Origin: Rhodocyclaceae bacterium
GTDB lineage: Bacteria; Pseudomonadota; Gammaproteobacteria; Burkholderiales; Rhodocyclaceae
Reading direction: 5' to 3'
Assembly (NCBI GenBank): GCA_030682175.1
Contig: JAUXOM010000132.1
Span: 1-38,290, forward strand
Length of the DNA stretch: 38,290 bases
A program made the position numbers and the translations under genes. The notes beneath the pieces were generated by a model. The model had not been told where the DNA came from and made no database searches. It was given only the letters and a program-made list of their open reading frames with translations. Numbering within the stretch: position 1 is the first letter of the stretch; each line of letters starts with the position of its first letter. Shown here in pieces: positions 33,205-36,120 of this stretch.

Positions 33205-33975
33205 CTATACCTGCAAGACGGAAGACACCAGCAACTGGGTGTAGGGATGCTGGGGATCGTCCAGCACCTGGTCGGTCAGTCCGGTTTCCACCACCCGGCC
33301 CCGGCGCATCACCAGCAGGCGATGCCCCAGCAGGCGGGCAACGGCGAGGTCGTGGGTGACGATCACTGCGGCGAGACCCAGATCGGTGACCAGCTCGCGC
33401 ATCAGGTCGAGCAGCCGCGCCTGTACCGAAACATCGAGGCCGGCGGTGGGCTCGTCCATGAACACCAGGCGCGGCCGGGTGACGAGGTTGCGGGCGATTT
33501 GCAGGCGCTGCTGCATGCCGCCGGAAAATCCCGTGGGCAGTTCGTCGAGGCGGGCCGGATCGAGTTCCACCCGCGCCAGCCAGTCGCTGGCGGTGGCGCG
33601 GATCTGGCCGTAATGGCGGGCGCCGGTGGCCATCAGCCGTTCGCCGACATTGGCGCCGGCGCTGACGTTCATGCGCAGTCCGTCGCGCGGATTCTGTTCG
33701 ACGAAGCCCCAGTCGGTGCGCAGCAGCCAGCGCCGCTCGGCTTCGGAAAGCTCGGCCAGGTCCACCAGGCCCCGGCCGGTGATCTGGTAACGGACATGGC
33801 CGGCGTCCGCCGCCAATCGCGTCGACAGCAGTTTCAGCAGGGTGGATTTGCCCGACCCCGATTCGCCAACTACCGCCAGCACTTCGCCGGGATACAGATC
33901 GAAGCCGACATCGGCGCAGCCGATGTGCTCGCCGAAGCGTTTCGACAGGCCTTCTACGCGCAGCAAGGGATTCAT
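33205..33975 (-). CDS. phnK: PhnK, C-P lyase-complex ABC-type ATPase
   Basis: 256 residues. Walker A GESGSGKST, signature FSGGMQQR, Walker B VFMDEPTAGLDV, and the PhnK-typical GFVEQNPRDGLRM. PhnK binds the PhnGHIJ core. ATG 33975 and its GGAGG are inside the right copy of a 17-bp duplication that brackets a repeat element between phnJ and phnK. Confidence 0.96.
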   Translation of the reverse strand: MNPLLRVEGLSKRFGEHIGCADVGFDLYPGEVLAVVGESGSGKSTLLKLLSTRLAADAGHVRYQITGRGLVDLAELSEAERRWLLRTDWGFVEQNPRDGLRMNVSAGANVGERLMATGARHYGQIRATASDWLARVELDPARLDELPTGFSGGMQQRLQIARNLVTRPRLVFMDEPTAGLDVSVQARLLDLMRELVTDLGLAAVIVTHDLAVARLLGHRLLVMRRGRVVETGLTDQVLDDPQHPYTQLLVSSVLQV

Positions 33976-33986
33976 GTCGCCTCCGC

Positions 33987-34085
33987 CGGGCCGCCCCAAG
34001 AAGGCGACGGTGTTTCCCGGAAGCCGCATCGCGGCTGAACCAGTGTCACCCCCTTTCGCGGAAAGGGGGTTGGGGGGATTGTCGT
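33987..34085 (-). repeat. 99-bp element between phnJ and phnK, bounded by 17-bp direct repeats
   Basis: The exact 17 bp ATTCATGTCGCCTCCGC stands at 33970-33986 and again at 34086-34102. Between them is a 99-bp stretch with a strong hairpin (CCCCCTTTC-GCG-GAAAGGGGG) and a GGGCCGCCCCAAG block, similar in layout to the 78-bp element before nifD and nifS. On the minus strand each 17-bp copy contains GGAGG and ATG, so the first copy opens a 39-codon frame overlapping the phnJ stop. Confidence 0.85.
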
Positions 34086-34087
34086 AT

Positions 34088-34966
34088 TCATGTCGCCTCC
34101 GCAGGAATAGGGCTTTGCGAGCCGGTATGGCCGGCGCCCTGGCGCGTCTTGCAGTAGTCGGAATCGGAGCAGACGAACATGCGCCCGCCGGCGTCGTCGA
34201 GCACCACTTCGTCGAGGAAGCTGTCCGCGGTGCCGCACAGGGCGCAGGGCTCGTCCCAGCGCTGGACGCTGAAGGGATGGTCCTCGAAATCCAGGCTCTC
34301 GACCCGGGTGTAGGGCGGGATGGCATAGACGCGTTTTTCGCGGCCGGCGCCGAAAAGTTGCAGGGCAGGGTTCATGTGCAGCTTGGGGTTGTCGAATTTC
34401 GGAATCGGCGAAGGCGCCATCAGGTAGCGGCCATTGACCAGCACCGGGTAGTCGTAGGTGCTGGCGATGTGACCATAGCGGGCGATGTCCTCGTAGAGCT
34501 TGACGTGCATCAGCCCGTAGTCGGCCAACGCGTGCAGCTTGCGCGTCACCGCCTCGCGCGGTTCGAGCCGGCCCAGCGGTTCGGGCAGCGGCACCTGGTA
34601 CACCATGATCTGATGCTCGCCCAGAGGTTTTTCCGGAATGCGGTGGCGAGTCTGGATGATGCTGGCTTCGCCGGTGCTGTCGGTGGTGGCGACGCCGGCG
34701 GTCTGGGCGAAGAAGCGGCGGATATTGACCGCATTGGTGGTGTCGTCCGAACCCTGGTCGATGACCTTGAGCACATCGCTGCGGCCGAGTATCGAGGCCG
34801 TGACCTGGATGCCGCCGGTGCCCCAGCCGTAGGGCAGCGGCATCTCGCGGCTGCCGAAGGGCACCTGATAGCCGGGGATGGCGACGGCCTTGAGCAGGGC
34901 GCGGCGGATCATGCGCTTGGTCTGCTCGTCGAGATAGGCGAAGTTGTAGCCGGCGACGGTGTTCAT
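34088..34966 (-). CDS. phnJ: PhnJ, radical-SAM carbon-phosphorus lyase
   Basis: Breaks the C-P bond of alkylphosphonate-ribose phosphate, releasing the alkane and a 1,2-cyclic phosphate. 292 residues. Unusual cluster motif CALC, 21 residues, C, five residues, C (CX2CX21CX5C) is exact. Gly32 (AIPGYQVPF), the glycyl-radical site, is in place. The start overlaps the phnI stop by ATGA. The last residues QSPIPAEAT end in the duplicated 17-bp segment. Confidence 0.97.
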   Translation of the reverse strand: MNTVAGYNFAYLDEQTKRMIRRALLKAVAIPGYQVPFGSREMPLPYGWGTGGIQVTASILGRSDVLKVIDQGSDDTTNAVNIRRFFAQTAGVATTDSTGEASIIQTRHRIPEKPLGEHQIMVYQVPLPEPLGRLEPREAVTRKLHALADYGLMHVKLYEDIARYGHIASTYDYPVLVNGRYLMAPSPIPKFDNPKLHMNPALQLFGAGREKRVYAIPPYTRVESLDFEDHPFSVQRWDEPCALCGTADSFLDEVVLDDAGGRMFVCSDSDYCKTRQGAGHTGSQSPIPAEAT

Positions 34967-36120
34967 GCGTTTTCCCCCACGGCGATCTCCGTGTGCGCCT
35001 TCCCACCAGTCCCGAAAAGGGGATTCCCTTCGGTCACGCTGACTTTCTTGCGCCCCTCATGCCTTTTGCGCATCTTGCGCAGCAGTTCGAGTTCGGACTG
35101 GAAATCCACGTAATGCGGCAGTTTCAGGTGCTGGACGAAGCCGCTGGCCTCGACGTTGTCCGAATGCGAGAGGACGAATTCCGGCTGCTGGGCCGGCGCC
35201 ACAACCTCTTCGCCCAGTTCGGCGGCGCGCAGGGCGCGGTCCACCAAGGCCATGGCCATGGCCTTGCGCTCCGCTTCGCCGAAGGCCAGGCCGTAGCCCC
35301 GTGTGAATTGCGGCGGCACCGTGCTGGAGCCGGCGAACTGGTTGATCATCTGGCATTCGGTGAGCGTGATCTCGCCGATGGCGATGGGAAAGCCGAGTTC
35401 CTCGGGCACGATCTCCAGCGCAACTTCGCCCATGCGAATCTCGCCGGCAAAGGGATGGGAATTGGCATAGCCGCGCTGCGTCGAATAGCCCATCGCCAGC
35501 AGGAAGCCTTCGTCGCCGCGCGCCAGATTCTGCAGGCGGGTGGCGCGGTCGGCGGGAAAGCGCAGCGGCTCGCGCGACAGATCGCCAGGCGCCGGATCGC
35601 CTGCGGGCGGCAGCTCGGCTTCCATCAGCCCTTCGTGCCCAAGCAGATCGGCAACGCGCGGCATCGCCGCCGGCAGGGGCTCGTCGGCGCAGGGCGGCAG
35701 CTTGCAGGCAGCCGGCGCATGCAAGGAGAAATCGAGCAGGCGCTGGGTGTAGTCATAGGTCGGGCCCAGCACCTGGCCGCCGGGCAGGTCCTTGAAGGCC
35801 GCCGAAATCCGGCGCCGGATGTTCATGCGCCCGCTATCAACCGGCAGGCTGTAGCCGAAACGCGGCAGGGTGGTGCGGTAGGCGCGCAGCAGAAAGATCG
35901 CCTCGACCTGATCGCCGGCCGCCTGCTTCAGCGCCAGCGCCGCCAGCTCTTCGTCATACAGCGCGCCCTCGCTCATTACCCGCGCCACGCCCAGACGCAT
36001 CTGTTCGCGAATCTGCGCCGGCGAGATTTCGGGCACGCCCTCGTCGCCACGCCGGGCGGCGGCAAGCAGTTCGTGGGAGTTGAGGATGGCGGTTTCGCCC
36101 CCTTTGACGGCTACATACAT
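34963..36120 (-). CDS. phnI: PhnI, C-P lyase core subunit (nucleosidase)
   Basis: 385 residues. With PhnG, PhnH and PhnL it exchanges the adenine of ATP for the phosphonate. Family stretches: MYVAVKGGETAI at the start, TLPRFGYSLPVDSGRMNIRRRISAAFKDLPGGQVLGPTYDYTQRLLDF, and NVEASGFVQHLKLPHYVDFQSELELLRKM near the end. About 28 residues follow this last block (KKVSVTEGNPLF...), longer than I expect for the family; that tail may derive from repeat sequence. Three bases after phnH. Confidence 0.95.
   Translation of the reverse strand: MYVAVKGGETAILNSHELLAAARRGDEGVPEISPAQIREQMRLGVARVMSEGALYDEELAALALKQAAGDQVEAIFLLRAYRTTLPRFGYSLPVDSGRMNIRRRISAAFKDLPGGQVLGPTYDYTQRLLDFSLHAPAACKLPPCADEPLPAAMPRVADLLGHEGLMEAELPPAGDPAPGDLSREPLRFPADRATRLQNLARGDEGFLLAMGYSTQRGYANSHPFAGEIRMGEVALEIVPEELGFPIAIGEITLTECQMINQFAGSSTVPPQFTRGYGLAFGEAERKAMAMALVDRALRAAELGEEVVAPAQQPEFVLSHSDNVEASGFVQHLKLPHYVDFQSELELLRKMRKRHEGRKKVSVTEGNPLFGTGGKAHTEIAVGENA

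Follow-up and report, generated by a model that had tools for sequence, protein, structure and literature searches.

The window, the whole 38,290-nucleotide stretch of Rhodocyclaceae DNA analyzed here (contig JAUXOM010000132.1), carries phnH-phnI-phnJ-phnK-phnL in that order on its minus strand. At the phnJ-phnK junction the 17-mer ATTCATGTCGCCTCCGC, which reads GCGGAGGCGACATGAAT on the minus strand, occurs twice in identical form at 33970-33986 and 34086-34102 with 99 bp in between. The repeat lengthens to 20 nt if one mismatch is allowed and is the sole direct-repeat family detected within 33900-34200. The intervening 99 bp hold a perfect 10-bp hairpin at 34048-34070 and, in the predicted RNA fold, further stems. 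The features of the junction, in the direction of transcription, are the following.

34963..36120, minus strand: phnI (PF05861, E 1.4e-161), overlapping phnJ as ATGA
34088..34966, minus strand: phnJ (PF06007, Pfam PhnJ, E 2.2e-147)
34086..34102, minus strand: first 17-bp copy, comprising the native phnJ end, its Shine-Dalgarno (SD) GGAGGCGAC and the original start codon, which is now the start of the leader frame
33976..34085, ends approximate, minus strand: inserted element (33971-34079 matches other copies)
33972..34091, minus strand: leader ORF of 39 codons, MNTTIPPTPFPRKGVTLVQPRCGFRETPSPSWGGPAEAT, whose TGA stop overlaps the phnK ATG
33988-34078, minus strand: conserved element body, matching the family consensus
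34048..34070, minus strand: 5′ hairpin with 10-bp arms
34022..34036, minus strand: middle hairpin AGCCGC/GCGGCT, from the fold
33976..34008, minus strand: 3′ hairpin, which takes the phnK SD into its stem and runs up to the base directly preceding the ATG, from fold and covariation
33980..33984, minus strand: GGAGG, the predicted phnK SD, inside the 3′ hairpin, from sequence and fold
33970..33986, minus strand: second 17-bp copy, comprising the element 3′ end GCGGAGGCGAC and the regenerated phnK start ATGAAT
33205..33975, minus strand: phnK (TIGR02323 PhnK, 5.8e-116, on a longer ORF), its start at 33975 placed by comparison with genomes G009 and G071

A sequence-only reading of this DNA had described a repeat with GGAGG and ATG around a 99-bp hairpin element, and both copies are indeed identical with the hairpin present. 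As that reading also had it, the ATG of the first copy shares an ATGA with the phnJ stop and begins a frame of 39 codons, and phnK stands behind the new start, with the leader stopping as ATGA on the phnK ATG at 33975. Judged by its letters, the operon is left unbroken by the insertion. Separately, we noted another palindrome-like stretch, GGGAATCCCC..., in the phnI C-terminus by the phnI-phnJ junction (window 34966-35050), which is possibly a different repeat fused to PhnI.

Comparison with related junctions revealed the state lacking the element. In G009, a genome of the same genus that is itself element-rich, phnJ and phnK are joined by one SD and ATG with the element absent (...CAGGAGGAGGCGGCATGAGTCCG), and the same holds in G071 from another genus, whose phnJ is 92% identical (...AAGGAGGCTGCATGAATCCC). 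Because both junctions have a single SD and ATG and no element, we read the element as an insertion at the phnK start codon, in agreement with the insertion first proposed for this junction. A phnK gene was detected at E 1e-50 in three of the 19 genus genomes, namely the window's own, G009 (88% identical to the window phnK) and G010 (52%). The family HMM found zero copies in 80 named phnJ loci, one of which stops short of the junction (L083), one of which lacks a clean phnJ stop (L084) and several of which have an acetyltransferase-like gene rather than phnK behind phnJ; it likewise found zero copies in 11 further wider-family loci and in the phnK loci of G009 and G010. If two copies had been the ancestral state, with deletions in the relatives, clean loss would have to have occurred independently many times, given the single-copy junction seen throughout the phn tree. 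No copy is present in any of the loci just listed, nothing was found in favor of such a history, and we consider it extremely improbable.

The inserted stretch belongs to a dispersed family. A check for the same element elsewhere, suggested by the sequence-only reading, returned 48 full or partial matches to the window stretch in its own genome (G000), where the 3′ hairpin core with at most 3 mismatches occurs at 150 sites (reversed control 0). Of 41 genomes, 20 including the window's own contain a match to the consensus, as do 6 of 23 genera, some over the hairpin core only. Across the order, the exact core pattern turned up in 3 genomes out of 300, again own included, with one of the other two being of the same family. 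Full-length copies of about 100 bp number 44 in G000 and 37 in G009 among the retrieved loci. We distinguished three classes that have a common 3′ stem-loop, CCTTGGGGCGGCCCGGCGG, and different bodies: class A, to which the window copy belongs, class B with the body CCCCCCACGCTCG..., and the longer class C. Class C copies in G000 (L174, L175, L178-L183) carry the same 3′ stem-loop with varied arms and look intergenic. Tandem class-A copies occur in L100, L102, L124, L134 and L206, and a livM-like start carries class B and class A in tandem in G009 (C5; L189/L147) and class A alone in G000 (C26; L092). At L172 (G000:C56, ~428-499) a class-B copy lies in frame within an open frame that, reading its translation, we take to be MurC-like, with the in-frame product ...EIAIPGGG / QDGPPRSQDPLAAPHGGASAALGRP / GGGSFTLIDDYGHHP.... 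An exact-pattern scan of viral contigs located the hairpin core in three IMG/VR contigs; one has two class-B copies at gene junctions (L348), and related copies occur in L350 and in L349, where the end of the contig truncates the match. In plasmids, the search matched only a 34-bp end of the hairpin, in two Burkholderia replicons that have nothing annotated at the match; the replicons L351 (Burkholderia cenocepacia) and L352 (B. stagnalis) carry short class-B-like copies at ~2457-2545, bounded by ATGA on either side, with GTCAGCC/GGCTGAC as their arms.

We used these copies to assess the length of the duplication. From 73 copies, 57 were non-tandem, 51 of them independent, and 34 of these had an ATG on each side. 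The stretch common to both flanks was 3 bp in three of the 34, 4 bp in 15, 5 bp in five, 6 bp in five, 7 bp in four, 8 bp in one and 17 bp in one, the window copy; 18 of the 34 share 3-4 bp, usually ATG(A) alone. The shared extension upstream of the ATG averaged 1.12 compared with 0.50 for mispaired flanks (p 0.0005), or 0.82 compared with 0.46 with the window copy left out (p 0.0008), and the extension downstream was not above mispaired flanks (p 0.45, 34 copies). A short duplication containing the ATG is common in the family; a 17-bp one is not.

These data bear on the view of a simple insertion that duplicated 17 bp of its target site, the element itself lacking a start signal and the leader being a useless decoy. 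The two sides of the window copy are identical, and theirs is the longest shared stretch among the 34 independent copies; against this, the other 33 share at most 8 bp, the family consensus 3′ end is GGCGGAGGC, and the element-free phnJ of G009 natively ends GGAGGCGGCATGA. Because the family consensus ends in this way, the GCGGAGG on the phnK side is the element's own, and we regard the simple insertion as improbable. The 17-bp target-site duplication of the sequence-only reading is abandoned on the same grounds, the SD being supplied once by the element end and once by phnJ, as in G009; copies with the element and without that duplication, which had been named as contrary evidence, are the rule, only the window copy sharing more than 8 bp. 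The companion idea, that the element brings its own start signal, survives in part: the element does supply an SD, through its own end and not through a 17-bp duplication. The 17 bp is a composite rather than a single duplicated unit, and the extra match in the window is most simply a native phnJ SD (GGAGGCGGC in G009) that resembles the element end (GGAGGCGAC here). A phnJ tail overwritten by the element end (18 bases matching L130 and L193) was also considered and set aside as less likely, given the native GGAGGCGGCATGA of G009.

We then turn to where copies reside. In G000, 25 of the 44 full-length copies are followed at a distance of 2-15 nt by an ORF that starts with ATG and has 40 codons or more, compared with a fraction of 0.126 for control positions 300-900 bases away, and in G009 the corresponding values are 20 of 37 and 0.11; these counts refer to copies in loci retrieved by core-only queries, with near-contig-end copies dropped, and leave out at least one listed copy per genome (G000:C82, G009:C25:151468). 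The remaining 36 of the 81 copies have no ATG-started ORF within reach. A GGAG end was present in 38 of the 45 copies at starts compared with 15 of the 36 others (p 1e-4). Because the 3′ end carries GGAGG, the gene behind the element gets a new ribosome-binding site and start. The enrichment at starts may reflect survival rather than targeting, and many copies stand before core biosynthesis genes, as identified by reading their translations.

At 18 class-A loci, chosen because a copy sits at a gene start, the retrieved orthologous starts comprised 23 filled and 93 empty locus-genome pairs, with gene names such as aceF-like and folB-like read from translations. We count 17 of the 18 loci as good, because the two "empty" relatives of the doubtful aceF-like locus resemble paralogues. 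At a ferredoxin-like gene (L116 and L201) the regenerated start is GTG, and the element-free relatives have ATG, with one GTG. The folB-like and pyrC-like starts, which carry class A in G009, have a different repeat-like stretch, ...GGGGCGGCCCTTC..., directly before them in G000 (L322 and L331).

Copies were also evaluated for starts on the opposite strand. Nine of the 36 copies away from sense starts pass the test for an antisense start and may stand at one, as do 8 of the 45 at sense starts, a difference that is not significant by itself; because those eight sense copies pass as well, the count alone shows no enrichment. The nine rows include two orthologous pairs and two copies that resemble class B or C. 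Read backwards, the C-rich left end gives a G-rich run ~4-9 nt before an ATG in L096, L128, L109 and L429, and likewise in L199, L197 and L154. CTCAT-type stretches in both flanks of L096, L154, L197 and L008 are a point in favor of antisense insertion. We raise, as a tentative reading, an element that targets start codons (ATGA) whatever its orientation and has a ribosome-binding site pointing outward from each end: GGAGG at its 3′ end and, on the opposite strand, a G-rich run of the kind GGGGGGAAGG read from its 5′ end. The gene would then gain a new start whichever way the element lands. The sense half of this reading is well supported, and the antisense half draws on a handful of copies. 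If true, the element would be a natural, self-inserting bicistronic cassette.

The leader frame was next compared across the family. Among the 73 copies the right ATG is present in 52 and the left ATG as well in 49, and in 41 of these 49 the leader stop lies at most 4 nt from the right ATG, 37 of the 49 having an exact ATGA, the window copy included. Reduced to 60 independent loci, of which 44 have the right ATG and 41 both, the leader distance is in frame with the new start in 36 of 41. Outside the two commonest lengths, 17 of 22 loci are in frame (p 3e-5 against 1/3), and the five out-of-frame loci are L205, L099, L098, L147 and L148, the last with a second, in-frame ATG. Codon-position entropies of the leader were 0.82/0.76/0.77 (26 copies, 101 nt) and 0.54/0.47/0.62 (26 copies, 98 nt), giving no clear coding selection by this measure and no third-position signal, and the leader peptide has no Pfam match at E <= 0.1. 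The old start had been said to open a decoy frame. It does open the 39-codon leader; "decoy" is probably too weak a word for it, and because the register is kept at such a share of independent loci, a coupling leader appears more likely than a decoy.

Conservation was likewise observed in the 3′ hairpin. Across 64 of 67 sequences (the divergent L113, L155 and L112 left out), 89.8% of cells are paired compared with 78.5% after shuffling, covariation is 0.295 compared with 0.110, and 10 of the 14 pairs change on both sides; shuffles scored as high in 0/500 cases for four of five measures and in 5/500 for the fifth, and sliding the pairing by one column reduced it to 47-51%. The helix reaches to the base directly preceding the ATG, with the four pairs nearest the ATG the most variable, and class B exhibits like covariation at most arm positions (30 independent copies). 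The GGAGG site has a predicted mean unpaired probability of 0.12 (46 family copies). Predicted openness of the pre-start region is 0.21 in filled (n=52) compared with 0.47 in empty sites (n=74); filled sites are also richer in G+C, and higher G+C alone lowers openness. Compared with shuffled sequence, the window stretch gains only a little stability in its fold (z -1.56), and 18 of the 200 shuffles match it. Template-switch repair of the palindrome, or copying at insertion, could have produced the arm covariation instead of RNA selection.

Two further explanations can be weighed at this point. In a pure survival filter, insertion would occur anywhere, junction copies would survive, and the hairpin and leader would be merely harmless: a dense genome leaves the most freedom at its junctions, the leader lacks a third-position signal and no ATG-started ORF follows 36 of 81 copies, all of which would fit, whereas the frame kept at 17 of 22 non-modal lengths, a covarying SD hairpin that ends at the ATG and the association of the GGAG end with start location speak against it. 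We find this filter possible, if somewhat unlikely, as the full account. A host-selected RNA regulator, a leader switch spread by tuning core genes, would explain the covarying hairpin over the SD and the many copies before genes read as core biosynthesis; its patchiness between species (93 of 116 locus-genome pairs empty), targets without a common theme as read from translations, and an Rfam search of 33700-34400 with 0 matches up to E 1 make it a poor candidate.

Taken together, we consider it likely, judging from these alignments and folds, that the family is a ~100-bp palindromic mobile element that inserts at translation starts and rebuilds a coupled start via a leader. In the window, it inserted into the phnJ-phnK ATGA junction, probably duplicating ATGAA and at most a few more bases. 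The old SD and ATG left in front would drive the short leader, here of 39 codons, the duplicated ATG is the new start, and the 3′ end brings an SD that is hidden in the predicted fold. With the leader stop overlapping the new start as ATGA and the new SD buried in the hairpin, ribosomes finishing phnJ would read the leader, open the hairpin and reinitiate on phnK, so that coupling from phnJ to phnK would pass through the element. Insertion into operons would be tolerated because the coupled start is rebuilt, near-neutrality then presumably being the cause of survival there, and because the element end carries a ribosome-binding site, spread through operons may proceed without gene shut-off.

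RAYT transposases belong with REP/BIME palindromes. In the 19 genus genomes, neither candidate mover tracked element abundance: the Y1 transposase (PF01797) was found in 5 and reverse transcriptase (PF00078) in 7, and G005, G008 and G015 have many element matches and no Y1_Tnp, G008 (85%) and G015 (83%) being incomplete. Our guess is a mechanism recognising the 3′ stem-loop, which would fit both the single 3′ stem-loop common to three different bodies and the short duplications of variable length.

Several known systems resemble the element in part. Rickettsia palindromic elements, as described in a MITE review (PMC10969869), are ~150 bp long in several families, have an open frame with a conserved peptide and sit in unrelated metabolic genes, often fused into proteins. 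The present element is similarly short with an open frame, and the class-B copy L172 is in frame in the MurC-like gene; the window's class differs in lying on start codons and forming a separate leader cistron with a new SD and ATG. In-frame insertion within proteins was not seen in class A, where 41 of the 49 two-ATG copies end their leader at the next start. Like MITEs (PMC10969869; MITEAba12, PMC6382973), the element is short and dispersed, lacks a transposase gene and varies in presence between relatives, whereas its shared flank of 3-8 bp and start-codon location set it apart, and no parent IS was found among the two enzyme families checked (PF01797, PF00078). The window copy yielded no terminal inverted repeats, the only inverted repeat of at least 10 bp within 33900-34200 being internal. 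REP/BIME sequences (PMC3733652) are likewise short hairpins with a conserved tag that often form dimers; the element differs from them in being longer, at starts and equipped with an open frame, and Y1_Tnp does not track its abundance.

On the translational side, overlapping stop-start pairs couple translation and an SD inside the upstream gene contributes (PMC6728339, PMC12548453). The element resembles such pairs in that its upstream cistron contains the SD and its stop overlaps the next start, and its hairpin is a structure that an upstream ribosome could open; it differs from them in that the whole, putatively coupling cassette is mobile and arrived by insertion. The engineered bicistronic design is alike in having an upstream cistron with an SD and a stop overlapping the next start. 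Literature searches of open-licence PMC, including one by the element's own sequence, turned up no account of the element. Short palindromic mobile elements and coupled leader cistrons are known in kind; their combination is, as far as our searches reach, new.

Insertions into tight operons are mostly expected to harm downstream genes, and an element that rebuilds the start could multiply in core operons. Filled and empty alleles in sister species would offer natural experiments on leader cistrons and SD hairpins, and gene finders may misplace starts at element sites. The element would also amount to a ready-made coupling part.
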